In this document: one piece after another, positions 14,631-51,655 of the stretch
Layout: each line of letters starts with the position of its first letter
How positions within the stretch are numbered: the stretch's first letter is position 1
Source of the DNA: Heliocidaris erythrogramma
Lineage: Eukaryota > Echinodermata > Echinoidea > Camarodonta > Echinometridae
Direction of reading: 5' to 3'
Assembly (NCBI GenBank): GCA_025617745.1
Contig: CM046858.1
Location: 40,903,850-40,967,849, forward strand
Length of the DNA stretch: 64,000 nucleotides
The notes under the pieces: model-generated
What the model was told of the DNA's origin: nothing
The model's database searches: none
The model's input: only the letters and a program-made list of their open reading frames with translations
Position numbers and translations under genes: made by a program

Positions 14631-14631
14631 G

Positions 14632-15176: not shown

Positions 15177-15325
15177 GACTAATGGGTACATTAGGAGGAC
15201 AGTTTTTGTTCTTTTTCTTTGTTCAACTGTCGACCTAATGTACCAACTGTCTACCTAATGTAGGGGTCGCTATTATGACGGAATAAACTGCATTGTTAGG
15301 TGTCGACTTAATGTACCCGTTAGTC
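15177..15325 (+). repeat. Fixed-core hairpin element, copy 1
   Basis: The ends GACTAATGGGTACATTA and its inverse (15308-15325) form a stem. Inside, the arm motif returns in direct orientation twice (GTCGACCTAATGTACC, GTCTACCTAATGTA). Then comes a core reading CTATTATGACG, one G, AATAAACTGCATTGTTA (15270-15298), then a last direct arm copy. A T-rich stretch with TTGTTC separates the left arm from the first direct copy. (TA)n follows. It is non-coding. Confidence 0.8.
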
Positions 15326-15357
15326 AAATATAAATATATATATATATATAAATACCC

Positions 15358-15483
15358 CTAATGGGTACATTAGGAGGACATTTTTTGTTCTTTGTCTTTG
15401 TTCAACTGTCGACCTAATGTAGGGGTCGCTATTATGACGGAATAAACCGCATTGTTAGGTGTCGACCTAATGTACCCTTTAGT
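15358..15483 (+). repeat. Fixed-core hairpin element, copy 2
   Basis: Same arms and core as copy 1, 32 bp further on, but with one direct arm copy instead of two before the core (core 15429-15457, one base different). It is followed at once by a long (TA)n. Copies 1 and 2 lie in tandem and probably arose by local duplication. Confidence 0.8.
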
Positions 15484-15522
<39 letters not shown>

Positions 15523-15923
15523 AATAAATCTTATATGTGTTTATGTGCAATAATATATTACCATTTTATCATTCATCAATTTCTTACTTTACTCCAATAA
15601 GTGGACATTCATCGTTATAAGCATATATTTATAAATAAACTTTTGTTTTACTTTATCAGTTCTTTTCAGCTAACCATTTCAACGATCTTAACTTCATGCA
15701 GATATACTCCCCTGTTTGTTTGACACTCATTTCTGCGCTTGCTCTCTTTGGAACACTCTACGTCGAGGTGATTTGCTTGAGTGTCAAGGTGACTGGAATC
15801 CGAGTGCATAAGTTTCATCATGAGAAATGGCTACCTGACAAATAAGCTATAACAGGATTAAAATCAGCTGGAGGAGGAAGATAAGAGGAGGCAAGAATAA
15901 GAATTGAACAAAAAGAGGAAAAG

Positions 15924-17069
15924 ATGGCAAGCAAATTGCTAATCCTTTTTGGTGCTTGGTTGATTCAATTTCTTGAGATAGGAATCATCAAGTCTTTCTC
16001 TGTCCTCTTGGCCCATATTATCAGAGACATCCACATAACGACGGGCCAATTTGGGATGTACATCGGAATGCATCATTCACTCACTGTCATGTGCGGTAAG
16101 AGAAAGTGAATTTAAATAATACAAATAATAATGATAATAATAGTAACAATAATACAAATAATAACAAGAACATTAATAATCAGCGGCGGAGGTGTATTAC
16201 GCAGTTCTATTCGTCGGGGGGGGGGGGGGGGGGGGGAGGGGTGACCTATTGTACATCCCCCACCTGATGAAAAGAATATCCTGCATATTTATTCCCATGA
16301 TAATAAAAATAAGAACCTCAGCAGGTATCGAACCAAGGACCTCTCCTATGACAATAAAGCCTTATGTGCTAGCCACAGGCTAGTCTTTACCAGGAAAAAA
16401 TAACAGTTTAAAATTTCAATTTCATCTTTGATAATTCAGAGACAATATTAGCATTTATGTTAGTAGTAAATATTTCTAGAGTGTAAAGTTGTGCATTGTA
16501 ATATTGCTTATGGCACTTTGATATCCAATCATCCTTTTTAACAATCCGTTCAAATCATTTATTTCAAGATGAAAATTATCCTGGTTTCTGAAAAGTAGGT
16601 AAAAAAACCCCCCGACCCTTGTATATGATGTTATAGCTCATTGTAAAATGAGTCTGCGTGAGTGTAAGACAGGACACAAATGCACGCATTTATTAGCTCA
16701 GGAGGAAACCTGTACTCAACATGGTCAGATGGTGAATAATTATTGTTAAGCCAAGCAGACAATTTTCCAAGACCTGATTTCTAAAGCAACATTTACATTT
16801 TATCATATGGGTGAGTATGTTATGCGATTTAATTATAATCTAATCTGATCCTTGGGAGCACTGTGGTATATTGGTGAAGGCTTTTGATTCATATAAGGAG
16901 AGGTCCTAGGTTCGATCCTTGCTGGGTGATTACATCCTTGGACAAGATATTTTAGCCTTATTTATCCCTCTGCATCCAGGTGTAAGTAGGTACCTGGCAA
17001 TAGCTGGGGTAATAACAATTGTAGGACCATGAGGAAGAACAGCGCTGATGCTGATGAGACTTCCCTGGG

Positions 17070-17129
<60 letters not shown>

Positions 17130-20100
17130 GTCGTTTTATTATACGCACCAAGACTTTAAAAATAGAGGAATAACATTCAATGTCAATCTTTTGTCTTTTG
17201 TACTTTATATTTTATACTTGTATCTTATACATAAATATTGAAATAACGTAATGTCTTAAAATATTAAGAGAGAAAACCGAAAAGATAAAATCAGGTGCTG
17301 CTATGCCCCTCCCCCCCCTCCCGGTGTAAAGCACCCTTCATTAATGTTTTTATTGTTTTCTCTCAAATCTAATACATACACAGAAAATCTCATTTTAATA
17401 TCTTAACATAATTAAATAATTATACATCGTTGAAGAAATTTTAACATGATATAGAAGAAAAAAATAACTTGTATTATACAAATTGAAATAACGTAATGTG
17501 TTAAAGGATAAGAGAAAAAAAAAAGAAACAAAAACAGGTGCTGTGAGTCTACCCTCCCATCCCCCCCCCCCCCCCCCGGTGACAGCACGCTTCCTAATTT
17601 TGCCTCCTACACATGGAAGGGATATAATTCCCTATTTCTTTATACCGTCTCTGTAAGGAAAAATAGAGAAAAAAAGAATATATTTGGCTCTTGCTCAACC
17701 TTTAACGCTACCTCGCTCCCCCTATTATTTATTCAATTTATATTTTCCCATTCCTTAAAGAAGGAGAAAATTTGCCTCTCTCCACTGCCAGCTTTGATTG
17801 ATTGTGAGGATCGATCATACAATTATTATTAATTTTGTTTAACATAGCTGAACTGTTTGAAATCCATCAAAACTATCAACAAAAGATGTAAGGCCCATTT
17901 ACACTATGATCGAAACATTGCGATTTTATTAAAATCGACACTAGATTCACAGATGGGACACAGAAAAAAAACTGTGAAAAAATATGAAAGAACACAGTTT
18001 ATACTGTACAGATTATGTAATCCCCAAGCTTGCATGGGTTATGGATGGAACAGGTTAAGGAACTGCACCGTCATAATCTGTATCCGAGACACGTTATTCA
18101 CCGGATCCATGACAAAAGTGTTCAACTAGGGACCGTTTCGGCCTCTTTGTCCTAGCTCTGCTCTCGCGGCCTCTGCGAGCCAGCTGTATACAAATGCAGT
18201 CAATACACGTAATTTCAAAAGCAGATTATGACATTTCCAGTAGTTTACTGCGTTCGTAGCCAGCTTAGGGACTATTATAATCTGCACAGTATTAACTGTG
18301 TTAAAAATAAGTTTTCAGAGTTGTCTACTGCCTTCTGTTTGTATCAGGTGAACGAGACTGTTTATCTTGTCTATTGAAACCGTAATATGTCAGTTATACC
18401 ACCAAACATACTGATAACAGTACTGACGAAATCTTGGCCGTTCGGGATACATTTTTTTTTGTTCGGTGTGTAGTCGGTCTACTCTGTGTGATTAGGGTAG
18501 CGCATTCAGATTGAAGTGTAAACATGGTAAATGGACCAATGCATAAAGAGTGGTCATACCCCATTCACACTGATGAGGCCGAGGCTTGACCGACAAAACA
18601 CCCAGCCAAAAAAGTTATACATGTAATTATTCTACCGAACGGCTAAGAAACGATTGGTTTATTTGGCGGTGCAACTCAGGTATTAGGTATTATAAAACTT
18701 TTTAACAAACATCTTTTTAAAATTTTAGTATTGAGACACTCAATTATTTGTAATGATACAGGTATCATCGTGAAGGTATTTCTTGATCGGTATTCCCCTC
18801 GCTCCTTAGCTATGTTTGGTGGATTGATAGGCTCCTTGGGCCTCATGGTATGCTCTACAGTCACCAAAGATATTCCTTTTGCAATCTGCCTTTTCTTCTC
18901 AGGTAGGAGATCGTGTAAAATCTTTATTAGCTAATTTCCCCAAGATATAGAGTATGAAATAAAGAGGGAAAAGGAAAAGAAACGAACAGTAAATTTGGTC
19001 TTGAGGTCTGGATGCCTTGAGGAAGAAACACGGAATCGAGGGTATTCTGCTCATAGACCGTTACCCTGTTTATAGAATGATTATAAAATGATGAAATGAT
19101 GATTCATTTAAATTACTTTTATATTCACAATGTTAATATGCGTTTCCCTCGCATCGTAAAGAGGGCTGTGGTTGGGGAGGGGGGGGGGGGGCGGTGGCAT
19201 TCTCCGTATACTGCCTTGTACGACCATGGAGATGGGAGTTTAAATTCCCATCTGCCGGGTACGACCCCGCAGCAAATGAACTTCTGTTTGATAGAAATCC
19301 GATGATACTAATGTGAACTATATTTTCCTTTTGCCCTTTTGAAGTTCTTGACTAATAATAAATTATTTTATTCAGGACTCGGATCATCATTTGTCATCTT
19401 TCCACCGCTTGTGTCGGTGATAAATGCATTTGGTGACAAATACTTGTTGGCATTGTCAGTCACCTCAACGGGTGCTGGAGTGGGAATGATGACATTACCG
19501 TTACTTACTCAGAGACTTCTAGAGGCTTACAACTGGCGAGGAGCACTCCTCATTCTAGGGGCATTAAACCTTCACGTGATTGTATCTGGGGCATTTCTTG
19601 AACCAACTATATTGCCAAGAGAATCTCCAGCTTCTCAGTACAGTCCTCAAGAAATACCACAGACACGTGATGATTCGGGAGCGGTTGCTTCTTTATCAAT
19701 TCAGCTAAACAGTGAGGAAAATGGCGACAGAGTGCAACCCCACGCTTCACACAGCGATTCACCGCCGTTGCGATGCTTCCACAGTGCTCTCAAATTGTTT
19801 TGGGCCGCTTTTCAAAGATCAGGAGTTGATGTCTTCAAAAAATATCAAATGCTCCTTTACTTATTAATAGCTGCTTACCTCCATGGGATCTCGTATGTCG
19901 GTTGGACCGTCTTCGTTATCGCGAATGCTGAATCGAAGGGCTTTGACGAAGGAATTGCTGTATTTCTGTCTCTTCTCGGTGGAATCGGAAACACCATTGG
20001 AAGGCTCATGCCAGGATTATTGGACTTTCTGAATAAAGATGTGTTTTCTTCAAGGATTTCTTTGCTACTGTTTGGCATGATTGGCGCGTTGCCGTATTGT

Positions 20101-23100
20101 TTGAATAAGATAGCATCTAGTTTCTCTACGTTATGCATGTTTGCTGTGCTGAATGGTCTTGCGTTGGGAGCAAAAACAGTCGTCAAAACTACATCGCTGA
20201 TAGACGTAGTTCCACTGTCTTTGTCGTCAACGGTTATTCCGTTCGCCATGATTGCTTCCGGGCTTGGTGAAATAACAGGTGGATGGATGACAGGTATAGT
20301 ATGACTTTTTCAAGACAATAATAAAGGAAATAGTGTTTGGGGGAAAAACACGAAAAAAGGGGGGGGGGGAGACATGGACATGGGCGCGCGCGTCCTTATA
20401 ATGTGAATGAATAGGTGGGTGATGAGAGAGAAAGAAATAGGAAGAGAGATGGAAAGAGAGAGCAAGAGAGACCGTAACTAGGATCAGGGATGTGATCCTA
20501 TTCCGGGGATAAATCAAATATGGAAACAGAAATGCAGAAGGATTTATACAGTACATTTTTTCTTATGGTTTCATTGAGACTTATTTTACTATTATGATAA
20601 TTTGAAGTATCTTCAGGACTTTGGATTACTAAACTTTGTTGCACTTTTTATTTAATTCACGTATTTCAGTTTAATGAATGTTAGATTTTTAAAGACAAAC
20701 GTTTATTATTACCCTATGAAGAAATAATCGTTTAAATGTTCCGATACAAACAAACGCTGGGAAAAAAGAAACATGGGGGAATTTTCTTATTTTTTTCTAT
20801 TTCTATATCGCCTACGAAACGCACTCAGAGAACAATTTAATGTAATGTATAGATTTTATTTCATTTCATTTAAGTGTTTCAAAGTAACAATTGTGTAGTT
20901 AACAATGTAAAAAATAATTGACAATGCAACAAAGTGCAGGAACATTTTCAATCATTCAATGCAAATTAAAGCGTCTTAACATTTGAGTAGTAAGAAAATA
21001 AAATAACAGTGAAGACAACATCAAAGTAATTATCTAAATATGAGAATGAAAACAAAACCAGCAAAGTAACACAATGGAGACATATTTCCCTTTCTACACC
21101 GAACGCTAATGTCCTCCTGAAACTTTGCAATAATAACAGCATTTCCAGCGGCTTGTCTCGAATGGGTGGGGTGCGGGAGCGGGATGGGAGCGGGAACGGG
21201 CACACCCTTTCGAGACAAGCCCCCCCGGTTATCTCGAATGGACGCGTTCCCAGCGAGAAGTTCAATGAACGCGCCACTTCGAGACAACCGGGGGGGGGGG
21301 GGGGGGGGGGGGCTTTCCTCGAATGAGTGTGTTGAGTAGACTTTTGTAACAGACGTTTTAGAATTTTTTTTGAAAAATGTACTCTTGCTGGTTTTTTCGT
21401 TTTTCTTTTGTCTAAGATGTAGAAAATATAAAAAAACGGTATCTAAAAATGCTTTTGACAAGGAAATCATTATTTGTGCAAAATAAATCGGAGAATTGAA
21501 TAATTATGCATTAAAACACACGGGGAAGAAAGGGCAAGTGGCGTAGCTAGGATTGTTAATTTATTTTTATTTTTTTGGCGTGACCTGTTAAATATTGTGA
21601 AATTGTGTTACAGACATGTGCTGACATAAGCCAAGGTGTGTTTATCATCTTTCCAAAGTTAGAAACACCTTTAAATGCCACTATCATTCTATCAATACCC
21701 ACTATCAAAAGTCAAAACTCATATCAAAAGGTCGTTTGTACCCGGCCCCCAACTCCCCATACCAGGGGTAGGCCTATGCTCGTAACTCCTTTTCAAAAGT
21801 GACCCCCTATTCCGGAGAAGTTGGAATTTGTTTTACCCCCTATCCCGGGAAATTTTCTGAGATATTGGACCCCCTATCCAGGCAATTTAGGAAATTAACC
21901 CCCCCCCCCACCTATCCCCGGGGAGGAAACCACCAGAGTCTGCGAAAATTGACCCCTATTTACATTTTCCCGGGAATATTTTTTCATCTTCCTCATTCAT
22001 CTTCCTATTTTCTTACTCACCCACCAATAAGGGGTGGGGCATGGCCATCTTGTGCCTCCCCCCCCCCCCGTACAAAAATACGCCGCAGTGAATTAACATT
22101 CTATTCTGGACTGTCTGCCCGACCAGACCTTTGAATTTTAAATGAACATTCCATTATGAATTCATGCAACCTCATACATTCATTTGACAACCCCCGGTTA
22201 TCAGTGACGGCACGGGGGGCATGGGGGGGGGGGGGCATTTGCCCCCCAGTCAGAAGCTTTGCCCCCCAGTTGCCCCCAATAATTTTCGGAGTGAAAAAAA
22301 TAAAAGGGTGGAAAATTTTGTTTGTCCGCCCTTGCCCCCAACAATTTCTTTTGCCCCCCCATTTGCCCCCCCCCCCCACCCCACTTTAAAAATCCTGGTG
22401 CCGCCACTGCCGGTTATATTTTCTACATCTTAGACAAAAGAAAAACGAAAAAACCAGCAAGAGTACATTTTTCAAAAAAAATTCTAAAACGTCTATTACA
22501 AAAGTCTACTCAACACACTCATTCGAGGAAAGCCCCCCCGGTTGTCTCGAAGTGGCGCGTTCATTGAACTTCTCGCTGGGAACGCGTCCATTCGAGATAA
22601 CGGGGGGGGGGGGGGCTTGTCTCGAAAGGGTGTGCCCGTTCCCGCTCCCATCCCGCTCCCATCCCGCTCCCGCACCCCACCCATTCGAGACAAGCCAGTT
22701 CCAGCAGTTTAAGATAAATGTTCATTAAAATTTAGTACTTATAAGAGGATAGTAATATTCAATGCTAAATTACGTATTCAGATACTTTTAAGATTATGCA
22801 TCGATGATATTTTCATTTGTTTTATGGATGATCAAATTTACAGAATTTCTTTATAAAACAAATGTAGGCTTGAAGATAAATCCACTCCCGATGACAAATT
22901 GTTTTTGAATGAAAGCAGAAAATAAGAGGAACGGATTAATGAAATATTTGAATGGAATCGGATAAACAATTAGAAAGTTGAATGTGAATGTATTTTTGTA
23001 TGTTGTGATCACTATACGTATGTGGAATAAAAAATGTTATTTCAGTTAAGAAACAGAGGATACGAGAGTTGTTTATATCATTAACATGAACAATTTCCCA

Positions 23101-23542
23101 TACTTATCTGGCCGATATTTGTAAAACTTTTACCGATCCGTCTCTATAATTTTTCTGCTTTGAAACAACTTATTTTCAAGGGTTTGGTTGGCTTTTGACT
23201 GCTCCCCGGTATCTTGTAACAAATAATGCAGTATACCTGTATAAGATTAAGAGATCGGTTTTGGTTACAATAAGAAGGAAATTATTCATGCTTAAAACAA
23301 ATTTCAGGGAAGACAATTATACTTTCAACCAAACTTAAAATCCTGCTTTTGGAACATGGATCCAACGCAGCAGGTTCACTCAAATTGCATGTTTTTTTTT
23401 CTTCAACTTTGCAGGACGAATATACGACATAACGGGTTCAATGGAGACATCTTTCCTTGTTCTTGGATGTATAGATATTGTCGGTGTCGTCGTTCTTTCA
23501 CTTAGCCTGCTACACGAGAAAATAATTTCTCTTAAATCATAA
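15924..23542 (+). CDS. SLC16/monocarboxylate-transporter-like major facilitator, four exons
   Basis: Exons 15924-16095, 18762-18902, 19376-20293 and 23415-23542 are bounded by GT/AG sites, every intron is phase 1, and the joined length is 1359 bases: 452 residues and a TAA. Exon 1 encodes the first membrane helix (FGAWLIQFLEIGIIKSFSVL), exon 2 the next (SPRSLAMFGGLIGSLGLM), exon 3 most of the carrier including FGDKYLLALSVTSTGAGVG, which corresponds to the YFxKRRxLAxG...GSGVG block of SLC16 proteins. A hydrophilic loop (about residues 190-245) separates the two six-helix halves, and exon 4 supplies the last helix. The protein would sit in the plasma membrane and move a monocarboxylate or related small solute; the substrate cannot be read from sequence. 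The DGGWGW-type motif usual before helix 1 is not seen, so an upstream coding exon may be missing or the N terminus has diverged. Introns hold SINE-like and transposon sequence. Confidence 0.9.
16312..16390 (-). repeat. tRNA-derived SINE head, minus strand
   Basis: On the minus strand, GGCTAGCACATAAGG resembles an A box and GGTTCGATACC a B box. The stretch ATAGGAGAGGTCC before the B box is nearly the same as in the SINE at 16852, so both belong to one family in opposite orientation. It lies in intron 1 of the transporter gene. Confidence 0.55.
16852..17130 (+). repeat. tRNA-derived SINE with (TTA)n tail
   Basis: GGGAGCACTGTGGTATATTGG (A-box region), AGGTTCGATCC (B box), an unrelated body with CATCCAGGTGTAAGTAGGTA and CCTGGCA, and a tail of about fifteen TTA units (17086-17130) give the full SINE layout. 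The tRNA-related head and the GTACCTGGCA body resemble echinoderm SINEs. It lies in intron 1 of the transporter gene. Confidence 0.75.
21150..22696. mobile_element. 1.5-kb transposon with 281-282-bp inverted ends, inside intron 3
   Basis: 21150-21430 and 22415-22696 are inverted copies, nearly identical apart from run lengths and one extra CCCGCTCCCAT-type unit. The ends read GGCTTGTCTCGAATGGGTGGGG. The arms include GGGAGCGGG repeats and G runs of 13-23. TTCCAGC abuts the left end (21143-21149) and recurs 2 bp beyond the right end (22699-22705), a possible target duplication. The middle has CCCCTAT/CCGGG-rich repeats and no transposase. The right arm edge was later split by the MITE at 22202-22409, leaving about 1.33 kb without it. 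Confidence 0.85.
22202..22409. mobile_element. hAT-type MITE, 208 bp, target duplication CCGGTTAT
   Basis: CCGGTTAT occurs at 22194-22201 and 22410-22417, exactly flanking a 208-bp unit. The ends are CAGTGACGGCAC and, inverted, CAGTGGCGGCACCAGG, which match hAT-type CAGNG...GG termini. The interior is mostly G and C runs with GCCCCCCAGT repeats and no coding capacity. It was inserted at the inner edge of the right arm of the larger transposon. Confidence 0.85.
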
Positions 23543-23693
23543 TCTGAGCGACGTAGCATCGAAAAGTACAGAACTCCATAATTATATCCGTGGTTAGTTA
23601 ACGTGGGATCGGCAACTGCATTCGTGGAAAAAGGTTCAGGTCTGCCTTGATGTTAAATCACCTCGTTTTATGGTAGCAACAGTTCGTAAATGG

Positions 23694-24419
23694 CTACCTT
23701 TTCAGCTCGTATACTCTCAGTGTTTTATCTTCCTGTATTACGAGTCTTCCAGGACCCGGCACGAGAAAAGTATTAACCAACACCATTGACTGGAACTCCA
23801 CATTCCTCTGTCCTATAACAACACCATTGGCGGCAATAACGTCAACCAAGTAATGTCCTCCTGGCAACTCACGATGCATAGCGAAAATGAAGTCTCTAGA
23901 TTCATCAACAGTAATGCTGCTAAGGTATCGTCCCGGAGAGAAGAGCCGACGTTGAATGTCACCAGAAGTGCCTTCCAAGATGCTTATCCAATCACCCGAT
24001 TCATGCCTGGACAGTACGACGATTCTTCTTTCAGACAAGGCATGCATCTGGTGTATCTTAAGAGGTGAGGTGTTCCCAGCAGTGACCGACTTCAATAGAT
24101 TACCCGAAGATGGATCGAAGGCGTTTATCAGCGACTCTCCCTCATAAGCCGCAAGTATCATGCAATTTCCATCGACCATGTCGACTGTAACCAGAAGAGT
24201 TCCTTCGTCACGTTGCATGGCACATATTGCCCTGATCCTTGACCAATCTTCTTCATAGATTAAAATCTCACAGTTGTCGGTGCTACACACCAATTTCCCA
24301 TCTCTTAGACATCTACAGGTTACAATAGACGAATTGTTTTCGTTTTCAGGGATTACAGTGCGCATAGGTTTACCCTTTAATGATATGTTTCTGACGTAAA
24401 GTTGTTTCTTGTTTTCTGC
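23694..24419 (-). CDS. Beta-propeller-like last exon (RBCC/NHL-type C-terminal domain)
   Basis: On the minus strand the acceptor TTGTTCTTAG at 24420 opens a 726-base exon (phase 0, 241 residues) ending in a stop at 23694. It begins AENKKQLYVRNISLKGKP and shows repeated strand-turn patterns: DGKLVCSTDNCEILIYEEDW, DGNCMILAAYEGESLINAFD, ERRIVVLSRHESGDWISILE, and a final EDKTLRVYELKR. These resemble blades of the propellers at the C termini of many TRIM/RBCC-like echinoderm proteins, where they bind partners; the family call is inference. N-terminal exons are not identified. It ends 151 bases from the stop of the transporter gene on the other strand. A paralogue lies at 28468-29098. Confidence 0.65.
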   Translation of the reverse strand, partial: AENKKQLYVRNISLKGKPMRTVIPENENNSSIVTCRCLRDGKLVCSTDNCEILIYEEDWSRIRAICAMQRDEGTLLVTVDMVDGNCMILAAYEGESLINAFDPSSGNLLKSVTAGNTSPLKIHQMHALSERRIVVLSRHESGDWISILEGTSGDIQRRLFSPGRYLSSITVDESRDFIFAMHRELPGGHYLVDVIAANGVVIGQRNVEFQSMVLVNTFLVPGPGRLVIQEDKTLRVYELKR

Positions 24420-25805: not shown

Positions 25806-25880
25806 TGGAATTGAATTGAATTGAATTGAATATTTATTATGGTTTATATGTCATTACCAATTTCAACGGTCTCATGTGAT
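25806..25880 (-). repeat. LINE 3' tail, (TTCAA)n on minus
   Basis: Minus-strand sequence runs into CCATAATAAATATTCAATTC followed by further ATTCAA units, the AATAAA-plus-pentamer ending of CR1/L2-type LINEs. The same pentamer ends the copy at 31430-31604 on plus. Confidence 0.6.
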
Positions 25881-31604: not shown

Positions 31605-33985
31605 AAAGCAATATCAAATATTACGAGTATAAATATATACTAGAGAAGCAGCCCGTGGACATCCACGTACCGTATATTTGTCACAATAATCAAATTAATA
31701 AAAAGAAGTCGGGTAAATTGTTATATTTTTTTACCAAGAAGTATTTACAACATGTGAGTATGTGTTATTTATCCAAATCTTTCATGAGTTCCGAAGAAAA
31801 TACATGTTCATCTTGATGAAGACTAAATGATATGGATATAATTATGTTCGAGTAGTACTATATCCATGTTAGAGGGAGCGATTTTTGATCTTGTCATGTT
31901 TCTGTGGGGTAATAATCAGAGAAATTAAGGCCATGAAAACATGACATGCATAATTAGCGTCCCTAACAATACAAATATGAGCAAAATGAATTTATTGTCA
32001 TTTTATTTTCAGGGGGATTATGGCCCTCTTATATGGGTCTTGGGAGGACCTGACGGATTGACTTTTCCCTACTACCCTCCCGTCACCCCAGCGTGGCAAC
32101 CGATATTCCTAAGTGACGTGATCTCCTACACCTCCCCTCCCCCGAATGATATCTACAGATCTGTTTAGTCTGTCATAAGGGAATGAATAATATATTTGAG
32201 GCGATATACAATAACATGTTTCCAACGGTATGAGGGCCATTTTCCCCATTCATGTCACTTTAGTTGTTGATAATAGGAATGATTTATGCAACAGCCAACC
32301 AAATGTGCGTGTAGGTAAACCCTAAACACTAACCCTAACCCTAAGCCTAAACCCTAAACTCTAACCCCAACCCTAACCCTATATATTGTTTTCATTTTGG
32401 GTAGCTTTCCCAAAAGGAAGTTTAAGTTAGTATATGCTTCCATGATATGAGTAAAAAGTAGAAAATAATAAATTAATTTTAAACAAAGAGTCCTTAAATA
32501 GGAAGTGGCCGAAACCTCCCTCCCCCTTTTCTTACATTCTAACAGTTACACGTTCCTACCCTTTACCTTGCCTCATTGAACATCAACCCCCACAAAAAAC
32601 AAAGACAATTGAAGCACAGAAAGAATTAAGTTCAAGTAAGGAAGTAATGGAACGCTTACATAAATCAAACTTCCAAACGAGCCGAATTTTCACAAATAAA
32701 AGGCAGAAAAGTTTACAGGCACCTGAATCGATCGCGACGAGGGGATGTCTCATTGAGACCTGTACATCATCCGCTTAAATCACTTGTTGAATTAAAAAGC
32801 AAATTGCAGTAGGGGCAGGTTTTGATACCCTAAACAGAGAAACCCGTCTATCCCTGATTTTTTATACCGTTAACGGCAATTTTATATCTTGCTTGGTATT
32901 TTACAACCTACTTTGAGGATTACATGATCATCATCATAGTCCTTTATTTAGCCAAAGAGGAACCGTAAAAAACTGACCGAATTTGGAACGCATTACCGAA
33001 CTATATCCCCCCCCCTTCCGCGGATCTTCTTCTTATCATCTCTGAATTTGATACCCTATTTCTTGATACCTAAACGGGCGTAACCCGGGTTATGCGCTTA
33101 TTGCTGAAAAGGTACCCTTTTTATCCGTTTTCTTGTACGTGGATGATGCCTGATGTACCGGCCTCAATGAGAAATGCCCCCCCCCCCCTGTAACCATGAA
33201 ACTACAAAATAATGATGTTACTCTATGCGTGAAACATACTACATGCAGTACATGTAGAAGTACACGTGCGCTGTGTTTTGATGCGCCGTATACATTGAAG
33301 CCATACATGTAATAAAATACTACAGCATGCGGAGCTGTTGTTCTTTGGCAATATACAAATTGAGGTTTCTCCCCGTCACAGGTAAAGGGTATGGGTTGGG
33401 GCATTACAGAAGGTACTTTTTCGTGCGTACGGCAGTGCGCTGTTCCATAGGCAGAATTATTACTCCCTCCGAAAATTCAATGTTTAAAAATTAATTTATG
33501 AAATATGGACTGCACGCCAGCCCTCAAAAAGTGCCTCCCAACCCTCTAAGAACCATTCCCCGCCCGTGGGTACCAAAAGGTGGGTACCAAAAAAGCCAGG
33601 GGAGGCGCCTATTCGAACCAAAAAAGGCCCCAAATCATTAGCGTAATATATATATATATATATACATACACCAAAAATCGCCTTGAAGAATATAGGAAAG
33701 TGTTAATAATATGGTTAAGAATAAGACATTGAAATGGGAGCAACACATACATTTCATTATTGGTTGTTAGATTTACTATCTTACAAGTAAATATGCAGAA
33801 CACTTTGATGCTATGATGTAATGGCACATCTAACAATAAGGTTGGCAGTTTAAAAAGTTCATTGACATGTACATGTATTGAATATGATAATACCAGGGGG
33901 TACCCGACCAAGTTCTGTTTTTATTAATCTTTTCATCATTGAGATTATGAAGCTACTTTGTTTAAAAAAAAGGAAATATTTCTTT
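31605..33985. other. Intergenic with interstitial telomere-like patch
   Basis: No supportable gene. A C run (33006-33015) and a second (33179-33188), a (TA)n at 33649-33664 and the CCCTAA patch at 32316 are the only notable features. Confidence 0.4.
32316..32384. repeat. Degenerate interstitial telomere-like (CCCTAA)n
   Basis: About ten CCCTAA or one-base variants (ACCCTAAACCC, CTAACCCTAAGCC, CCAACCCTAACCC) lie in a row within AT-rich DNA. Confidence 0.8.
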
Positions 33986-33989
33986 TCAT

Positions 33990-34919: not shown

Positions 34920-34976
<57 letters not shown>

Positions 34977-37747: not shown

Positions 37748-38722
37748 TGGCCTATGTCCAAGATGAACTCAGGTATTGCTGTGTGGTACATCTGTGTGGT
37801 ACTGGTTTGCGGTACTGCTATGCGGTATGTGGTAAACATCTGTGGTATTGCCCTATGGTATACCACAGGAATTGCTATGTGGTACAGCTATGTGGTACTG
37901 CTGTGTGGTACAGCCATGTGGTACTGCTGTGTGGTACAGCCATGTGGTACTGCTGTGTGGTACAGCCATGTGGTACAGCCATGTGGTACTGCTATGTGGT
38001 ATTGCTGTGTGGTACAGCTATGTGGTACTGCTATGTGGTACAGCCATGTGGTACTGCTATGTGGTACAGCCATGTGGTATTGACGTGATTTGTGTGGTAT
38101 ATGTCCCAAAATACCACATGTATTGCTGTGTGGTACAGCCATGTGGTACTGCTGTGTGGTACAGCCATGTGGTACAGCCATGTGGTACAGCCATGTGGTA
38201 CTGCTATGTGGTATTGCTGTGTGGTACAGCCATGTGGTACTGCTATGTGGTACAGCCATGTGGTATTGACGTGATTTGTGTGGTATATGTCCCAAAATAC
38301 CACATGTATTGCTGTGTGGTACAGCCATGTGGTACAGCCATGTGGTACTGCTGTGTGGTACAGGTGTGTGGTATTGACGTGATTTGTGTGGTATATGTCC
38401 CAAAATACCACATGTATTGCTGTGTGGTACTGGCATGCGGTATTGCTTTGTGGTATTGTTTTGTGGTATTAACATGTGGTAATGGGCCCGGGGTTCTGTG
38501 GTATACGTCCCAAAATACCACAAGATCCACAGGTGAGTTCCATGGGTATTTTTCTTGTGGTATTTTCTATGTGGTAATCCCGTGTGGTATTTATGTGTGG
38601 TACTTCTATGTGGTAAATGTCCCAAAAAACCACAGGAATTTTCTGTGGTATACCACAGGAATTTTCCTATGGTATATCCTATGGTATATCCTGTGGTTAC
38701 GTTGTGTGGTATACCACAGAAA
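37748..38722. repeat. 13-bp TGTGGTAC minisatellite with higher-order units
   Basis: The array is built from 13-mers of the form TGTGGTACAGCCA and TGTGGTACTGCTG. A non-13-mer insert starting TGACGTGATTTGTGTGG and containing CCCAAAATACCACATG begins at 38081, 38267 and 38375; the spacing difference (186 versus 108) is six 13-mers, so a higher-order unit has changed in copy number. Towards the right the units become TGTGGTATACCACA palindromes. Since 13 is not a multiple of three, all frames are open and the long predicted proteins are spurious. The right end joins a LINE at about 38723. Confidence 0.9.
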
Positions 38723-41105: not shown

Positions 41106-41173
41106 GTCTGCAGTTCTGAAGCTGGAGTCGCTGGAGTCATTGGAGAAAAAAAGAGAGTAGGTCTACCGTAGAG

Positions 41174-41760: not shown

Positions 41761-41809
41761 AGGCAGCTAGCTTGCAGCACACGATTTTGCTGTAATTGTT
41801 GTAATATAT

Positions 41810-42200
41810 CGACGCTGTTTTTACGAACCGGCATACGAAGCCTGACTGCGCGAAAACAAGTTTCCAAGATAATCGCGTTTAAAGACTTTGCCCATTTAAA
41901 ATGGCGGTTTGAACACCATAGTTTCATTTAATCATCGTAGAATTGAGTGTGTAATATGAGTGGAATTTATTCTCCCACATGCATGGAATATTTAAGAAAG
42001 AGACGCAGTATTTTAGTTTTAATCTCTGCTTGAGATGGCATGCCGGTTCGTAAAAACACACGTTTCCGCATTTTACATAGCGCGTGTACTTATGGGAAAA
42101 CTTTACGAACCGGCACGCGTTGATCGTATGCCAGTTCGTAAAACTCGCGCCTGGTATGGCTGCGCGTAGGCAAGCAGTATTACGAACCGGCATATGACAC
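41810..42200. repeat. Cluster of TACGAACCGGCATA motifs in both orientations
   Basis: The motif occurs at 41822 (+), 42041 (-), 42104 (+), 42126 (-) and 42180 (+), with one-base variants. A further copy at 56019 (-) extends to about 38 bp of near identity with the first. Function unknown; it may be a subterminal repeat of a transposon. Confidence 0.65.
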
Positions 42201-43199
42201 GTCAGTAGGATTATTCGCCTAGTTCTTAACGCAGTTCGAGGCCAATCTTTTGTACAATTGGTACTGAAAATGAAGACTGTAATCCCGACAAACCATGCAT
42301 ACAGAATTAAATGAAATAACACAATTTGCATTGTTTCCGATGATTTTCTTTATCTCACGGTATCCCTTTCATGCATTACTTATTCATGACCCGCCCACAT
42401 TAAAACTTGGAAAATTCAGTCTTCGACTGAACTGAAAGTCTACCCCCCCCCCCCCCCCCGGAGATAATACCACTTCTCTCTCTCTCTCCCTCTCCGTTTT
42501 AGCTTTATTTTCATTTATTTCGCATCTAGAAGAAAGCTGCTCCATTTCCCCCATGCACTCTTCACACATCCCTTAACTTTTGTAATTCTATTCTCTTCTC
42601 TCTAATCCTTCAAATTTACTGCAATAAATCATATATACCTACCTATTATGCCTGTAGTCTTGACTACGGGACCCCTTCGAGAATTTAACACACATGAGTC
42701 ACAATATTGTGCGCACCCCCCGTAATCCTATTGTCCCCTTCGCCACTCACGCGCGTCAACACGCTACGGCCATCCTCTTTCTTGCTCGCCCCCGACGAGA
42801 TAGGACGTATAGTCACAGCGCTCCTGAAATCAGGTCGTATAGTATCTTTTAGGTGCGCTTTTTCGCACATTTAAAGCACTTTTAGGTACCTATATTCGCT
42901 TAGATTATAGTACTGTGTGTTTTAGTAGTCACTTTTGCCGATTGCAAGGGATTTTTGATATCCTTTTCTTGGCATTTATTTTTCCATTTCACGGTCAGCC
43001 CCACGTAGATATTTCTGTGTGTTTGCGGGTGTTTCCGTTTGTCACCGAGCCTTTGGGTTCGGTGTTTGTTCTTACGGTTTTTTGGCTGTGAAAATTCTTT
43101 TGTGCGTATCTCCCAAATAAAATTTACCCTTATTTTACTGCATTCAGTTGAAGTATTTCTTATTTTGAAAAGTATACTTTATTGTCTGTTTTATTGCAG

Positions 43200-45540
43200 T
43201 GGTATGGATTCGGAAGAAGCAGCTAGGTCAAGGAGACCTGCTTCTTCCGAAGAGTCGTCTAGCAAGACGACTCGGCCTTCCAGAACTCTCCCGAGTACTT
43301 CGGTACATGGGGGACAGAGGAGGGCTAAGGGTAAGTTGCCTAGTGGTGTTTCCTTGCAGAGTTTGCCAGTCTCGGAGCTTGCGGCTTCGGGACGGGTGGC
43401 GTTAACTGAATCGGGATTGTCAACTCCGAAGCCCGTGGTTTCGGGGTGGGTGGCGTCAGATTCTAGTGGTTTGGATATCTAACGAGTCCAATCCCCCGGT
43501 CGCTGAGACCAGAGGGGGGCGGTTGTTTCCCGTACGGTAGCGTTCACTCGCTCTGATCCGTTAGGGGAGACGCGCCCCACTACTGCAGGGCAACCCACGG
43601 GCTTAGTCCATGTTGGTCTGGGTTCTCAAACCCTAGCCCCCGGCAAACGCCATATGGGGGAACGAGTACTTCCTGGGCTGTCTCAGGTGCCAGCTAATGG
43701 GAATGCTCGAGCTAACAATTATGGACGCTCTTCGGAGCAACAGGTGTTTTCACCTGAGTGCGTGACTACTAGTGCTCCCCTATTGCTGCTTTCGAGCGGT
43801 CCAATAGCGGGTTCACACGCCTTTAGTAGTCATCGGGCACATACCGAGTCATCTCGGTCTGCCCACGCACTGGGAGCTTTTAGCTCCCAACCCATGGCTA
43901 CTGCATCTTCTTGCTTAGCCAATATGGGTGATTTGGGCGATTCTCTAGGCTTACGCCATGAGCGCTCCAATCCCTTTTTGGGAAGTGAACGTCCCTCCGC
44001 GGAGGGATCGGTTCGTGTTTCCGAAGTGGCTTCGGAGATCCGAACGAATCCGATTAAGCGTTCTAACAAAAGGGTTTCGGCTACGACTCTTGTCGAGCCA
44101 GCCAAGAAAAAGGCCAAGAAGAGGGCAAAAAGTGGCAAGGCTTTGCCGGCCTCTTGCCCGTCTGGCCTGGCTAACCCAGCTAGCTCCTCTCAAGCTGACA
44201 TGTTCAGCATGATGCGGGCTTTTGCTCAGAATCAGGGTTGGTCCTTGTACCGGCTACTTCAACCCTGACTTCTGTCCCTATTCAGGGATCTGACTTTGAG
44301 ACTAATCAGCCTTTTGTGTTGGATTCGTCTTTGTCTGAGTCGGTTTCGCATGTGCCTCCTATGCCCTTGGGGCGCCGCTGGGCGAGGAGACTTTCGTTGA
44401 ACCATGCGGGGCTCTGCCTGCTGAGGCCTTTGTTAGCGTTCCTTTGTCTCTTTCCACTCGGGTGGAACCAGATTTGGAGGTGGCCTCTCAAGCTTCGTTT
44501 TTTGAATCGCTTGGGCAGGCGGAGTCTCAATCGCTCGCCCTCTGTGGGATGGAAGCGATTGCTTTGTTATCCAGATATCTCTCTGAATTTTAGTCAACCC
44601 GCGCGCAGGGTTCGACTTCGCGTTGGCGTTCCTTTGCCGGGTCATCCCGGTCTGCCCTTGCTCTGGGCGCCTTGGCGTCCGGCCCATGGCTGTTGCATCT
44701 CCTTGCTCGGCCAATATGGGTAATTGGTGCGCGTCTTTGGGTTCAATACCCTCAGCGCACTTCTCCCATAAAGGGAGGTGAGCGTCCCTCAGCGGAGGGT
44801 TCGGTTCGTGTTCCCGAAGGGCTTCGGGGATCCGAACGAAACCGAATAAACTCTCTGAAAAGCGGGTTTCGACTTTTGGGCCAATCAGAAGCCTAGGAAA
44901 GGGGCTAAAAGAGGCAAGGCTTTGCCTGCCTCTTGCCCATCGGGTTTAGCTAACCCTCCGGTCTCTCAAGCTGAGATGTTCAGTGTGAGATGGGCTTTGC
45001 CCAGACTCAGGGTTGGTCCCTTGTACCAGGATTCACATCCCCTGCTCTTGTCCCTTTTTTGGGTCGGACATCGAGACTAATTAGCCTTTTATGGTTTATT
45101 CTTCTTTGTCTGTGATGGGATCACATGCGCCTCCTAGTCTCGCAGCCTCGGGGCTCCGTCGGGTGAGGAGGCTTATGGCGGTTCATGCGTGAATCCGACC
45201 GTTTCGGCCTTTGTTCGTGATTCTTTGTCACGATCATTTCAGGCGGATCCAGTTTTGGAAGCGGCCTCTCAAGCTTCGGTTTCCGAATCGCTGGGGCAGG
45301 CAGAGCCTTAGTTGCTCTCCCTTTGTGGGGTAGAAGTGATTGCTTTGTTCTATACTTTCCCTGACTTTTAGTCAACCCGCGCGCAGGGTTCGACTTTGCT
45401 TGGGTTCAGGCAGCGGGATTCCTCCGAGCGTTTTTCTCTTGCGGAGGATTTCTAGCTGGATTTTGGACGCATTGAAGCGGTGCTTCTTTTGAGCGTCATG
45501 TTTGGTTTGCAGTGGTCATAGTTTTCCACTGCAGCTGCCT
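43200..45540 (+). pseudogene. DIRS gag-like region
   Basis: Ser- and Arg-rich sequence with PAKKKAKKRAKSGKALPAS and repeated segments, in the place where DIRS elements carry gag. It is broken; nothing further can be assigned. Confidence 0.6.
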
Positions 45541-45545
45541 CGGTC

Positions 45546-47360
45546 ATGTACCGTCGCAGAGTATTGGTTGGTGGCTGTCTTCGTTCCTTTCTCCCCGCTT
45601 GGGAGGCCATCTCCGGGGACGCTTTTGTTCTCTTTGACGGACGAGACGGATTCTTCATAGATCTGTCCGCCCCGCTCCCCGGAGGTGATATAGGAACTCG
45701 GTCACCTCACAGGCTGTCTTTTTCCCTTTCTCCGACTTTTGTTATTCCCAAGCGCTCGGGAAAACTTCAGTACATTTTCGGATGGAGACTCTCGCCTCCA
45801 TTCTCCCGTTGATCAAGAGGAAGGACTACGCGGTCTTGATAGTTTTCGAAGATGCGTATTTCCACTTTCCCGTTCATCGCGCTTTGCGCGATCTTCTGGG
45901 GTTTTTCTTCCTCTCAGAGACTTATCGTTTTCGCACTCTTCCCTTCGGGCTGTGCCCAGTCCCTCGGGTTCTTACTCAGGTTGTAGCCGTGCTGGCAGCC
46001 TCTCTGAGGCGATGCGGCCTTCGGCTATTTTTGCTACCTGGACGATTGGCTTCTCCTAGCGGAGTTGCGCGATTGTTTGTTGGACGAGACTAGTTTGCTC
46101 GTCAATCTTACTCAAGACTTAGGTTTCCTAATAAATTGGGAAAAGTCAGAGTTAGTTCCCACTCGCAGCCCAGTTTTTCTGGGGGCGGTGTTAGACATAA
46201 GGAATCAGTTGGCTCGGCCCAGTCGAGACAGGATTCTCACCATTGTCTCTGCGGCTCGCAAGCTCTTGCTGGCCAGAAGAGTCTCGGCCAGACAGTGGCT
46301 TCAGTTTCTAGGTTATCTAGCCAGTCTAGTCGATGTTTTAGAGGACTGCCGGCTCCTCATGAGACCCTTTCAGAGACATCTCCTCAGGTTCTTCAAGCCG
46401 GGAAAAGACTCTCTTTTGGTCTGGATTCCAGTACCAGTAAGGATCAAGTCTCTTCTCTCTTGTTGGACGAGCGAGGTGTTTCTCGCGCGAGGCAGGTCCT
46501 TCTCTGCCCCTCTTCCGTCGATATCGTTTTCGACGGACGCCTCTCGGTTGGGGTGGGGAGGACACTGCAACGGCAGCACGGTTGCGGGGGATTGGTCTCA
46601 TCTTGGGACTCTTCCTCATATCAATGTCCTGGAGTTTATGGCAGTTCTGTTGACCTTGCTCCATTTCAGAAGTCGACTTCACAGTCGTTCGGTTCTGATT
46701 CTCACGGACAATGTTACTGTGGCGGCATATATCAATCGGCAGGGAGGCACACGTTCGGTTGCCCTGAATGCCCTAGCAGCTCAGCTGTGGAGGTGGTGTC
46801 GTCGCATGGCAATCACACCCGTGGCCTCTTTCATCCCCGGTCGGGAAAACCTCATTGCGGATTTTCTGTCTCGGGGCAGGTATCTTCCATCGGAATGGAC
46901 GCTCCATCCGGAGGTATTTTGCCGCATTCGCAGTTGCCTAGGTCCACTGGAAGTGGATCTATTTGCGTCGGTGCTAAATCACCAGCTGCCGAAGTATTGC
47001 TCCCGTGTTCGCGATCAGGGAGCATGGGCTCTCGATGCTTTCTCCCTCAGCTGGGAGAACCTTCAGGGATTCGCCTTTCCTCCCTTCCAACTGATTCCGC
47101 GTGTCTTGCGGAAAATCAGGGAAGATCGGGCGCGGGTGCTCGTAATACCTCCCTTTTGGCCCAGGAGGAATTGGTTTCCAGAACTTATGAGCCTCCTAAG
47201 GGCTCAACCGTTCGTTCTCCCGTTAAGAGCGGATCTGGTGTTACAGCCCCTATCGGGGATTCTTCACCACAGTCCGGAGTCTCTTCATTTGACTGCTTGG
47301 CCCCTGTCAGGGAATCTGCAAGACAGTCGGGTCTCTCTGATAGAGCCGCGGACTTTTTAA
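45546..47360 (+). pseudogene. DIRS reverse transcriptase and RNase H region
   Basis: The later part shows the RT connection FLINWEKSELVPTRSPVFLG, then RNase H blocks SISFSTDASRLGWGGHC, INVLEFMAVLLTL, LILTDNVTVAAYINRQGG and REEN-like GRENLIADFLSRG, and a tail resembling the LDAFSLSW block of DIRS and related elements. It overlaps the recombinase frame, as is usual in this family. The RT N-terminal part is decayed. Confidence 0.8.
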
Positions 47361-48334
47361 TGTCCAGTCGTAGGGTTTCTACTAGGGAAATTTACAATTC
47401 CCGTCTCTCGGTCTTTTTCCTTTGGTGCAAAGAGAGAAATCAAACCCCTTCTAAGGCTCCTATTGGTTCAATTGCGGATTTCTTAATCTCGTTATTTGAC
47501 AAAGGGAGATCTATCTCTACTATCCGAGGCTACCGTTCGGCGATCGGGGCCATTCATTCGGGTTTCTCGGATGGTTCGGGGATTTCCAATTCCCCGCTAC
47601 TAAGTGGTTTGATTCGTTCGTTCTTTCTGAAACGACCTTCTTTTTCTAAGTTAGTGCCGTCTTGGAGTCTGCCTAAGGTCCTGGAGGCCTTGGCGAAACC
47701 TCCTTTCGAACCGTTAGGTGAAGCTTCGCTTCATCATCTTACGGTTAAGACGCTCTTTTTGGTAGCTATTGCCTCTGGGCAGAGGCGCAGTACTCTTCAT
47801 GCTCTCTGTCTTACTCCTGGTCATGTTCGCTGGGAGAGAAAAGGCGTTAGATTGATTCCTAGGGCTTCTTTTGTTGCCAGGAATCAGACAGCTGCCTCTG
47901 GCCCTGTTGAGATTTTTCTTTGTCCGCTTTCTAACTTTTCTTCGGTGCGTGAGGACAAAGTTTGGTGTCCTGTAAGGGCTCTCAAATGGTATATTGATAA
48001 GACTAAGTCTTATCGTAAGGATGATCAGTTGTTCCTGATCACTAGAGAGCCTTTTTCTCCTGCCTCTCTTGATTCCATCTCTAGATGGATCGTTGAAGCT
48101 ATTAGGGCCGCTGGCTCAGAGGCTCTTTTATCCGACAGTAAGCCTCGTGCTCATGATACTCGTAGTGTCAGCACTTCTTGGGCTCTGTTTCAAGGTGTGG
48201 CGCTTGTTGATATTTTGAAGGCTGCTTATTGGCGTTCGCCCAATTCCTTCATTTCTTGCTACCTTAGGGATGTTCCCGCAGGTGAAGTTTTGTTTGCGTC
48301 AGCCACCTTGAAGGCCGCTGTGTCTTCTTTGTAG
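47340..48334 (+). pseudogene. DIRS tyrosine recombinase region
   Basis: The C-terminal part of a long open frame shows a core-binding domain with ISTIRGYRSAIGAIHSGF and a catalytic domain with FLVAIASGQRRSTLHALCL (first Arg), AHDTRSVSTSWAL (H-x2-R block) and WRSPNSFISCYLRD with the nucleophile Tyr. This is the tyrosine recombinase arrangement of DIRS elements. Confidence 0.88.
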
Positions 48335-48401
48335 TCTTTGGTGTAATCCTATTCCCTTCTGCTCGAAACATGCCTCCCGGTCTTTGAGTTGGCGCTGGTC
48401 T

Positions 48402-48496
48402 GGCATAATAGGTAGGTATATATGATTTATTGCAGTAAATTTGTAAAATCAGCACTGATTTTCTTATTTACTATATAAATCTATATACCTACCTAT
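48402..48496. repeat. DIRS internal complementary region
   Basis: The first part is the reverse complement of the element's left end (GGTAGGTATATATGATTTAT) and the rest that of its right end (GTAAAATCAGCACTGATTTT), so the two outer ends meet here as in the circle-forming region of DIRS. Confidence 0.9.
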
Positions 48497-48749
48497 GACC
48501 CTCCCTCCTTCCCCTCACCTTGCAAGCAACATGTTTCTACTTGGGATTGCTCGCAAAAGAGGAAGATGGCCGTAGCGTGTTGACGCGCGTGAGTGGCGAA
48601 GGGGACAATAGGATTACGGGGGGTGCGCACAATATTGTGACTCATGTGTGTTAAATTCTCGAAGGGATCCCGTAGTCAAGACTACAGGCATAATAGGTAG
48701 GTATATAGATTTATATAGTAAATAAGAAAATCAGTGCTGATTTTACAAA

Positions 48750-51655
48750 CTTGTAGCACACCCCAATCTCATCCCCCTAACCTCGTGTTTTCTCTATCAC
48801 ATAACTATAATTATCTTGCCCTGCAGAGACAGCATGATTTTTTGTATTTTTCAGGATAATATTGAATGTATTTTAACTAACATTTAAAAGAGATAAAATC
48901 AAATTGTAACACTGCACATCTTTTAAGACAAATCTGCAAAATAATGGCAGACCTATCATGTATTTCAGAAAGCTACAACACTGTATGTTAGCGTGACAGT
49001 GATGTGATAAAAAAACCACCTTCGTTTTAACTGAGAATTACCAGACATTGATTTTGTATAGACAATTCACTGTACTGTAGTCATTACTAAATTCAGGTGA
49101 ACTAAAAGTAGAAATAACACATGTCACAAGAGTCTCACTAGAAGCGTACAAATTGGTCATAAAATTCATCAGTTTATTTGCAAATAACAAGAAACAATTT
49201 GCGATCAAGATTAGGTCATGTATTTCCAAATCTTAAAAATTCACATCAGATAAGGATAAAGGGGAAGTAAGACTGAAGATATATTTCCCTCTGCATATTA
49301 TTGTAATAGGCCTAATAACTGGAATATGTACTTAAAAAAAAGTTATAAAAAAAAACATTTGCTAAGTCACAAATACACTGTACAAAATGATAATTCATTA
49401 AGAATAACCATATACTGTATCATTTATCACTCAGGAAGGGGGGTCCAATCAGTTGTGAGAGTTGCCCATTGCAGTTATACTAATGGCATATAAACTGTGT
49501 GTACATGTATATACATATATATATATTTCTCTAGATTCCGCATTTGGGAGACACGGCTTTGTCATTTTAATTGTTCCTCGTGTCTCCGTAAAGCGGTTTC
49601 GTGTCTCCGTAAAGCGGTGGTTTCTATTATGACGAAATAAACTGCATTGTTACGTGTCTCCCAAATGCGGAATCCAGCGTAATATGTGTATGTATATTTA
49701 TATCTGTTTTCTTTTTCTTTAATTTGATGTTTACAGTACTGTCTTCATATGAAGTGGATTATCAAAATACTGAACATGTAAGCCTTAAGTGAATTACAAT
49801 CAGGCTGTACTCTGTAACTTTCGTATAAAGTGAAGAGTGAACACCCAAACATTATACAAAGAAATTACAAAAGGAAATAAATTTTGACAATGACAGCATC
49901 TACAGATGCATTTAGCAACATAATACTCAGTTATACAATTTGATGGAAACTGAAATGGAGTTCATTCAGTTGAAAATTTCCTCAATACCAGTGAGTCAAC
50001 AACAAGAAGAAATTCAATATCAACTATATACATTAAATATTCTTTAAATGTTCCAATGACTCTGATTTCAATAATCTTGTAGTACAACTCTTTGGCGTAT
50101 ATGTATGCACCTAAAATGCTCCTTTGCTGAAAACTATATACCCTGCAAATAATTTTCAGACCTTTTGTTTAGGTTATATGTACAAAGAATCTGCAACGGT
50201 CGAATCTGCAATGGACTACCTATCTGTTCATGAAACAAGCCAAGTGCATTTTCACATGAAATACCTTTATGTTCATAAAAAAAAAAAAAAAATCATGTAC
50301 CGGGACATACATTTAAGAGTCCAAAATTCATTTCTTATTCCTTTCTGCAATTTTCACATCCTTCACATACTGCATTGGGAATATATGAAATGTATTTAAT
50401 CAAATTCAAAACATCACATTAAAGCAAATGAATACGTCTGATACAGATCATATATAGAAATGCATTAATGAAATATAAATTATTATATAAATTTATTAAT
50501 TCAAATAGACAATGAGCATCAACAATGAACAGGGTTCACAGAAGTTGATTATCAAGTTCATTTCCTTATTAAAACGCTCAGACAGTTTTGTGAATTAACA
50601 CTTTTCCCTGCACTAATAGCTAAAACTGGAATATAATATATGTACAGAACAATTTTAAGATCCCAATGTATATTTTTAAACAAAATGAACAACAGATTCT
50701 TCGTCATGTTTAATTTACAATATTACATGAAATGGTTGGTTGCATATGAAAGAAATATGCAACTCTACTTATTTCATAAAATTCCAGTAAACCAATCTGA
50801 AGTCAATTGTTAATTAATTCAAAACAAATGCAAGACCAAGCATTCATTTTTCATGCATATTATTCCTATTACATTTTCTTCAAAATCTCTTGAAGTGTGC
50901 ATGAATGGAAGATTGTGGAGAAGCTGTCGACAGTCACACACCTAAACATTTAGTGTTTCAAAATTGAATGTTAATACATTTGATATTGTAAATCAATGGT
51001 AATTCACCATTCAATGAATTCCATACTAATATATAAGTTCTGAGTAACCATGACAGGAGCAAAAAGTGAAGAACGACAAAGATGAAGCATCTTGAGACAC
51101 CATACTATTATATTTTTCCCCTCTATGTTATTCACTACAAAAAACACTATTTTAACCCAACAAGGTGGGATTTGTCAATGAAAGTCATTTTAAGACTCAC
51201 CTTCAACAGAACCAGATCCACCTGAAACAATGATAATATTAATACAACAGACGTACGACCTGCAATGGAGGCTGTAGGCATTGCATGATATAATACATTT
51301 TCTAAGATATACATATATACATCTATATAATCCAAGGCCATATGATGGCAGTGTGCAGAGACGATGAATTGATCCTAGCAAGGTACATCTAAAAGCAAAC
51401 TGACAAAAAAATTCAGTGGCAATGCATATTGAAATTCAGGATAAACACATACAAAACAATGTATTTCCTCAAAATGTTAGAAAAGGGTTTCTGCTCATTT
51501 TTATCGTTATTTCATAAAATTTGAACTGAACCGAAACATCGATCTTGCTTGTATGAGCAATCTCACCGTTAAGTCATGAGAATTCATGTCGTGCATCAAC
51601 AGCTGCATCATGGCATCAACTTCCGAGGCATCCTAAAATGTATAAGTGGAAGGCT
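48750..51655. other. AT-rich flank downstream of the acidic gene
   Basis: Holds the third fixed-core hairpin (49534-49674) and an A run at 50278-50291. Three segments on minus have plausible splice sites: 51567-51632 (DASEVDAMMQLLMHDMNSHD), 51201-51221 (VDLVLLK) and 50819-50941 (VCDCRQLLHNLPFMHTSRDF, ending in a stop). All three are phase 0 and would join, but they do not join in phase to the last exon of the acidic gene. They may be chance or belong to an alternative transcript. Confidence 0.35.
49534..49674 (+). repeat. Fixed-core hairpin element, copy 3, with different arms
   Basis: GATTCCGCATTTGGGAGACA begins the left arm and its inverse closes the unit. The arm motif is repeated directly twice before the core (GTGTCTCCGTAAAGCGG) and once after it (GTGTCTCCCAAATGCGG). 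The core is CTATTATGACG, one A, AATAAACTGCATTGTTA (49624-49652), the same as in copies 1 and 2 except one base. The TTGTTC spacer is also shared. The arms have no similarity to those of copies 1 and 2 except GTGTC next to the core. Confidence 0.8.

Follow-up and report, generated by a model that had tools for sequence, protein, structure and literature searches.

Can a miniature inverted-repeat transposable element (MITE) keep its interior nearly constant while its terminal arms diverge? Conserved ends around a variable interior are the usual hallmark of MITEs, and a stretch of the Heliocidaris erythrogramma genome raises the question of whether the pattern can be reversed. The stretch comprises 64,000 nucleotides (assembly GCA_025617745.1, contig CM046858.1, positions 40,903,850 to 40,967,849 of the forward strand) and is referred to here in full as the window. 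The 64-kb window carries three short inverted-repeat units of 125-147 bp each at two loci, which a first-pass annotation had described as hairpin elements with a fixed core and arms specific to each locus. The units most likely represent two diverged subfamilies (A and B) of one MITE, one of them present as a tandem pair. Among the general MITE features, the units are short, non-coding and bounded by terminal inverted repeats (TIRs). Their length of 125-147 bp falls under the MITE size limit of about 500-600 bp, and the longest open stretches in the units span only 29, 37 and 38 amino acids.

All three units (u1 to u3) share the same order of parts, consisting of a left inverted arm, a T-rich spacer with TTGTTC, one or more inner arms in direct orientation, the core and a right arm. 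The inner arm is present in two copies in u1 and u3, and in a single copy in u2. The positions of arms and cores bear out the annotated coordinates and layout in each of the three units, as follows.

15179-15323, + strand: unit u1, TIR element of subfamily A, with two inner arm copies; DNA fold of 15177-15325, z -2.57
15179-15201, - strand: left terminal arm of u1
15228-15242, + strand: inner arm copy 1 of u1
15248-15262, + strand: inner arm copy 2 of u1
15270-15298, + strand: conserved core of u1
15301-15323, + strand: right terminal arm of u1
15358-15482, + strand: unit u2, subfamily A, in tandem with u1 and lacking one of its inner arms; DNA fold of 15350-15490, z -4.02
15358-15380, - strand: left terminal arm of u2
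15407-15421, + strand: single inner arm copy of u2
15429-15457, + strand: conserved core of u2
15460-15482, + strand: right terminal arm of u2
49531-49677, + strand: unit u3, subfamily B, with a perfect 22-bp inverted repeat (49534-49555 and 49653-49674); DNA fold of 49530-49678, z -7.26
49531-49553, - strand: left terminal arm of u3
49581-49595, + strand: inner arm copy 1 of u3
49602-49616, + strand: inner arm copy 2 of u3
49624-49652, + strand: conserved core of u3
49655-49677, + strand: right terminal arm of u3

The end-to-end match of u1 extends outward to GACTAA at 15177 and 15325. The perfect arms of u3 enclose a 97-bp loop, and beyond them the ends still match as far as about 49531 and 49677. 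Single-stranded DNA of the units folds better than shuffled sequences on the + strand (z values given with the units above) as well as on the - strand (z -2.53 for u1, -3.53 for u2 and -6.80 for u3).

The core is the most constant part of the units. At up to three mismatches, the 29-base core has three matches in the window, all on the + strand, against a shuffle mean of 0.00, which confirms the three annotated units. The next-best stretch in the window matches at only 19/29 positions, and a profile search of the window for further diverged units retrieved only the same three above threshold. Core identity amounts to 28/29 between u1 and u2, 28/29 between u1 and u3, and 27/29 between u2 and u3. 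Outside of the core, identity between loci drops to 73/107 aligned bases for u1-u3 (nominal Fisher p 0.0014) and 60/90 for u2-u3 (27/29 inside; nominal Fisher p 0.004). No such contrast exists between u1 and u2, with 28/29 inside versus 93/97 outside. These counts exclude gapped columns, and u1 and u2 are not independent of each other. The nominal p values are too good because the core was chosen for being conserved. Allowing for the picking of the best stretch, the u1-u3 contrast stands at a p of about 0.02.

The arms of the two loci are diverged, not unrelated, and their collinearity is stronger evidence of this than the arms alone. Read outward from TGTC, the arms of u1 are TGTCCTCCTAATGTACCCATTAG (left) and TGTCGACTTAATGTACCCGTTAG (right). 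The left arm of u2 equals that of u1 and its right arm is TGTCGACCTAATGTACCCTTTAG, while u3 carries TGTCTCCCAAATGCGGAATCTAG (left) and TGTCTCCCAAATGCGGAATCCAG (right). In fixed register, 9-11 of 15 bases are alike across loci, following the pattern TGTC..CC.AATG. Terminal arms of u1 and u2 share 9-10/15 bases with those of u3, and 11-13/23 over the longer arm in right-to-right and left-to-left pairs. Permutation p values across loci range from 0.0013 to 0.014 with TGTC included and from 0.03 to 0.16 without it, so that arm similarity alone provides moderate evidence. The part left of the core (93 bases in u1) aligns to u3 with a score of 25, compared to a shuffle mean of -11.4 (sd 8.4), and none of 2000 shuffles reaches this score. 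The right arm alone is weaker in the comparison of u1 and u3, with its score reached by 48/2000 shuffles. The assertion that the arm motifs share nothing beyond GTGTC is thus contradicted by the register of the arms and by the homology of the left-of-core part.

The spacing between the anchors is nearly invariant. The distance from inner arm 2 (the single inner arm in u2) to the core is 22 bp and from the core to the right arm 31 bp in all three units, adding up to 53 bp between inner arm 2 and the terminal arm. The left arm is 27 bp from inner arm 1 in u1 and 28 bp in u3, and the two inner arms are 20 and 21 bp apart, respectively. Anchor spacings of u1 and u3 thus agree within 1 bp. Spacings of 20-21 and 53 bp would be close to two and five turns of DNA. 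Transposon ends can carry several transposase sites, and a unit with one copy of the end motif on the left and two or three evenly spaced copies on the right may by analogy resemble such multi-site ends. The likeness in register and spacing also bears on the origin of the arms. Arms copied from the target, as previously considered, are not supported because target-derived arms would lack any cross-locus likeness of this kind. The additional proposal that the core templates a local duplication is not needed, as matching ends are a feature of TIR elements in general.

Three copies are present, but they represent only two loci because u1 and u2, which start 179 bp apart, form a tandem pair. Their sequences agree at 94% across a 106-base stretch that takes in the TA tail and at 97% across 64 bases. 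We read the pair as a probable duplication of a unit together with its TA tail, rather than as two insertions. The following alternating TA tracts adjoin the units.

15334-15350, no strand: TA tract between u1 and u2
15487-15517, no strand: TA tract right of u2
49515-49526, no strand: TA tract left of u3

The window contains seven alternating TA runs of at least 10 bp, and three of the seven end 5-11 bp from a unit, in agreement with the earlier observation that the units adjoin (TA)n-type sequence.

Arms agree better within units than between loci, with 12-15/15 compared to 9-11/15 bases alike. Left and right arms match at 19/23 positions in u1, 20/23 in u2 and 22/23 in u3. The agreement is not complete, contrary to the statement that all copies inside a unit are the same. 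In u3, the two inner copies make up a perfect tandem repeat with a 21-bp period and are identical over 15 bases, yet they differ from the ends of u3 at 3/15 positions. Left and right arms differ at 3/15 positions in u1 and 2/15 in u2. Between u1/u2 and u3, seven arm positions changed on both sides and stayed matched, out of 18 (u1) or 19 (u2) positions paired in both. These seven two-sided changes fit a concerted change of transposase-binding ends.

Taken as a whole, the units are best explained as MITE subfamilies in which the arms are transposase sites that changed together, the core is a constant cis-element and u1/u2 arose by tandem duplication via their TA-rich flank. We assign this explanation a probability of roughly 0.7. 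On this view, a transposase encoded elsewhere would bind the arms, at one site on the left end and at two or three on the right, and the core lies between the inner and the outermost right-hand site. Since movement would depend on matching arms, a subfamily mobilized by a transposase of changed specificity would see all its arms change together. The core might be kept because it serves a step independent of transposase specificity, such as end pairing or the binding of a host DNA-bending factor. The motif WWCAAWG is an HMG/SOX-like site, and it occurs in the core of all three units as well as in the spacer of u1 and u2, not of u3. At a density of 2.1 per kb in the window, the motif in the core is only a hint of a possible DNA-bending factor site.

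Several observations weigh against this explanation. Only two loci are available, too few to show subfamily structure or copy number. Shuffles of the match string, each scored by its best 29-column window, reach the observed value in 461/20000 cases for u1-u3 and in 1389/20000 for u2-u3. The contrast of the core over the rest is thereby supported modestly and amounts in effect to one comparison between two loci. The proposed inversion of conservation holds in its direction (28/29 in the core versus 73/107 elsewhere), but with modest statistics and from two loci. Transposases normally require arm tips, and the tips are the least conserved part of the arms. No partner transposase was identified among the 13 of 52 window open reading frames (ORFs; at least 110 amino acids) that were scanned against Pfam. 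Among these 13 ORFs, the only transposase-type matches were a DDE_3 fragment (853-1293) and a C-terminal match to Tc5, neither of which reached the cutoff. The unit profile does not match the inverted-repeat arms that surround the DDE_3-like fragment. Pfam matches in the window also include an MFS transporter and three retroelement reverse transcriptase domains, a gene content indicative of an animal. The best symmetric target-duplication offsets are ATATAA for u1 and ATAT for u3; the TA-rich flanks allow many such matches and therefore make a target site duplication unreadable.

The main alternative is that the core is similar through recent exchange or chance unevenness of divergence, rather than through function. 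Exchange could have involved gene conversion, recombination between MITEs or TIR replacement around a captured core. The best-window shuffle frequencies above fit such an origin, as does the fairly sharp change at the core edges. In an ungapped comparison of u1 and u3, 28/29 bases agree inside the core, compared to 14/25 just left and 12/27 just right of it. Chimeric MITEs are also known in general. However, similarity with fixed spacing goes on beyond the core, which leaves no sharp breakpoint of the kind that a swapped cassette would produce. We regard exchange or chance as doubtful, though well ahead of the explanations that follow.

Homogenization within units, also raised by the first-pass annotation, would have the hairpin arms correcting each other, or the core templating their duplication, with arms drifting separately at each locus. 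The closer agreement of arms within units than between loci and the perfect 21-bp tandem in u3 are both in line with this mechanism. Yet the two inner arms of u3 are the same over 15 bases and still depart from its terminal arms at 3/15 positions, and u1 and u2 have in common two positions at which the left arm departs from the right. Homogenization would thus be incomplete at best. The occurrence of one arm type in u1 and u2 is uninformative on this point because the two are tandem copies. Overall, we consider such homogenization quite improbable.

A Helentron-type non-autonomous element (HINE- or DINE-1-like) with subterminal inverted repeats and a microsatellite is a very improbable identity. 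DINE-1/Helentron-associated and mini-me elements are short and non-autonomous, with a core beside a microsatellite or (TA)n. The core and the TA tracts adjoining all three units recall these features. Helentrons and HINEs lack target site duplications and carry subterminal repeats, a 3' hairpin and an autonomous Helentron partner. Here, in contrast to DINE-1/Helentron-associated elements, long inverted repeats form the ends of the units and the arm motif is repeated inside, and a short 3' hairpin ending in a conserved tail was not apparent by eye. A comparison of the 1-kb flanks of u3 with those of u1/u2 gave no sign of a longer element around the units; the ten matches listed were all short, the best E being 0.006 over a 15-base stretch and the greatest length 34 bases. 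Least probable of all is a structured RNA or microRNA-like gene with a hairpin kept by compensatory change. Such a gene would accommodate the seven two-sided changes that keep pairing and the weak microRNA-model hits over the hairpins, of which the best, over u3, scores 31.3 bits where the cutoff is 119. However, the whole window has no Rfam match at gathering score, and the hits listed, far short of their cutoffs, sit on the u3 hairpin or mainly on the TA-rich stretch between u1 and u2. Nor would such a gene be expected to lose an inner arm, as u2 has.

The closest known parallel to a MITE with a conserved interior comes from corals. CMITEs of Acropora millepora and A. palmata (Wang et al. 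2010, PMC2872659), which are of the piggyBac/TTAA type, are non-coding TIR elements of about 100 bp, and across families their 75-base interior is better conserved than the TIRs. According to the available parts of that report, whole CMITEs are in some cases arrayed in tandem, which its authors explain by replication slippage, and the elements retain CC[C/T]T at their tips and TTAA as target site (PMC2872659). The authors suggest a role of the interior in transposition and describe its origin as mysterious (PMC2872659). As in CMITEs so described, the interior of the present units exceeds the TIRs in conservation and copies occur in tandem (the u1-u2 pair). In contrast to CMITEs, no TTAA lies within 12 bp of either end in any of the three units, and the tips are CTA, with ends beginning CTAATGGG and CTAGATTCC. 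The 60-base consensus of the CMITE interior has no match to the units longer than 6-7 bases (E no better than 0.99). The present units also differ from CMITEs as portrayed in the accessible text of PMC2872659 in holding inner copies of the arm motif. The units thus share the CMITE pattern without belonging to the CMITEs, and appear to be a separate family in which the arms recur inside the element. The assertion that no named family has this design needs to be narrowed accordingly. Conserved interiors, divergent TIRs and tandem arrays have a precedent in CMITEs, for which the accessible text describes no inner arm copies (PMC2872659).

The present units also invite comparison with a second group of elements. 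Stowaway-like and Tc1-mariner MITEs are small, with TIRs and TA-rich insertion sites. The units match these elements in size, TIRs and TA-rich site, but no Tc1-type tip was recognized by eye, and a TA duplication is unreadable in the TA-rich flanks. Searches of the open-access full-text literature returned, by titles and abstract openings, no family like this one other than in papers on DINE-1-type elements (PMC4067079, PMC2374699), although the family may already be named in Repbase or Dfam. In the same literature, no papers were found for six arm and core strings, and a 10-base core string gave no repeat-element paper by title, one of the papers listed being on yeast transposon mutagenesis. 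Three core patterns had no matches in IMG/VR, and a 24-position core pattern had none in the GTDB genomes; by their descriptions neither collection was built for animal genomes and both are thus uninformative on the host. The first 19 core positions matched seven stretches in prokaryote metagenome-assembled genomes of GTDB. We rejected these as relatives of the core and take them as chance matches because they agree with the full core at only 19-24/29 positions and lack TGTC at the two anchor places tested.

The window also carries other repeats. An inverted repeat at 730-1351, with matched stretches of 87, 19, 12 and 58 bases, encloses or overlaps the ORF with the sub-cutoff DDE_3 match and is probably a decayed Tc1-like transposon. 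A large inverted repeat at 11813-12416 has matched stretches of 31 and 128 bp and a 167-bp tandem duplication inside. Just left of u1, the right arm of an inverted repeat at 14631-15033 lies in minus-strand coding sequence, which by eye encodes a GIY-YIG domain (Penelope-like). A short internal AACCCT telomere-like array is located at 32318-32381. A long array of a 13-bp GTGGTA-containing repeat at 37873-38697, slightly right of a run of unknown bases, shows higher-order units of 26, 108 and 186 bp. The ORF at 46094-48334 appears by eye to belong to a tyrosine-recombinase retroelement and has no Pfam match. About 100 bp past its end, an inverted repeat at 48440-48749 has arms of 57 bases around an interior of 196 bases. 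A 26-bp tandem repeat (ATGAATAGCGACCCTCTTCTCCGATT or its complement) at 60203-60353, 60486-60535 and 63211-63441 flanks the reverse transcriptase-containing ORF 60515-62698 on both sides, and the array at 60203 is inverted relative to those at 60486 and 63211.

In the window alone, the case for a conserved interior rests on two loci and modest statistics. A further-reaching idea, which we consider rather unlikely, is that the core constitutes an arm-independent transposition module. Such a module, shared by the subfamilies, would let these MITEs swap their transposase-binding arms and switch to another transposase while keeping a required step constant. If true, the units and CMITEs would be two unrelated instances of a constant core whose ends can be exchanged, which would point to a general strategy of MITEs. 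A second example of reversed conservation, unlike CMITEs in sequence and with inner copies of the end motif at regular spacing, would suggest that the interior can be required for transposition and would provide a concrete cis-element to test.

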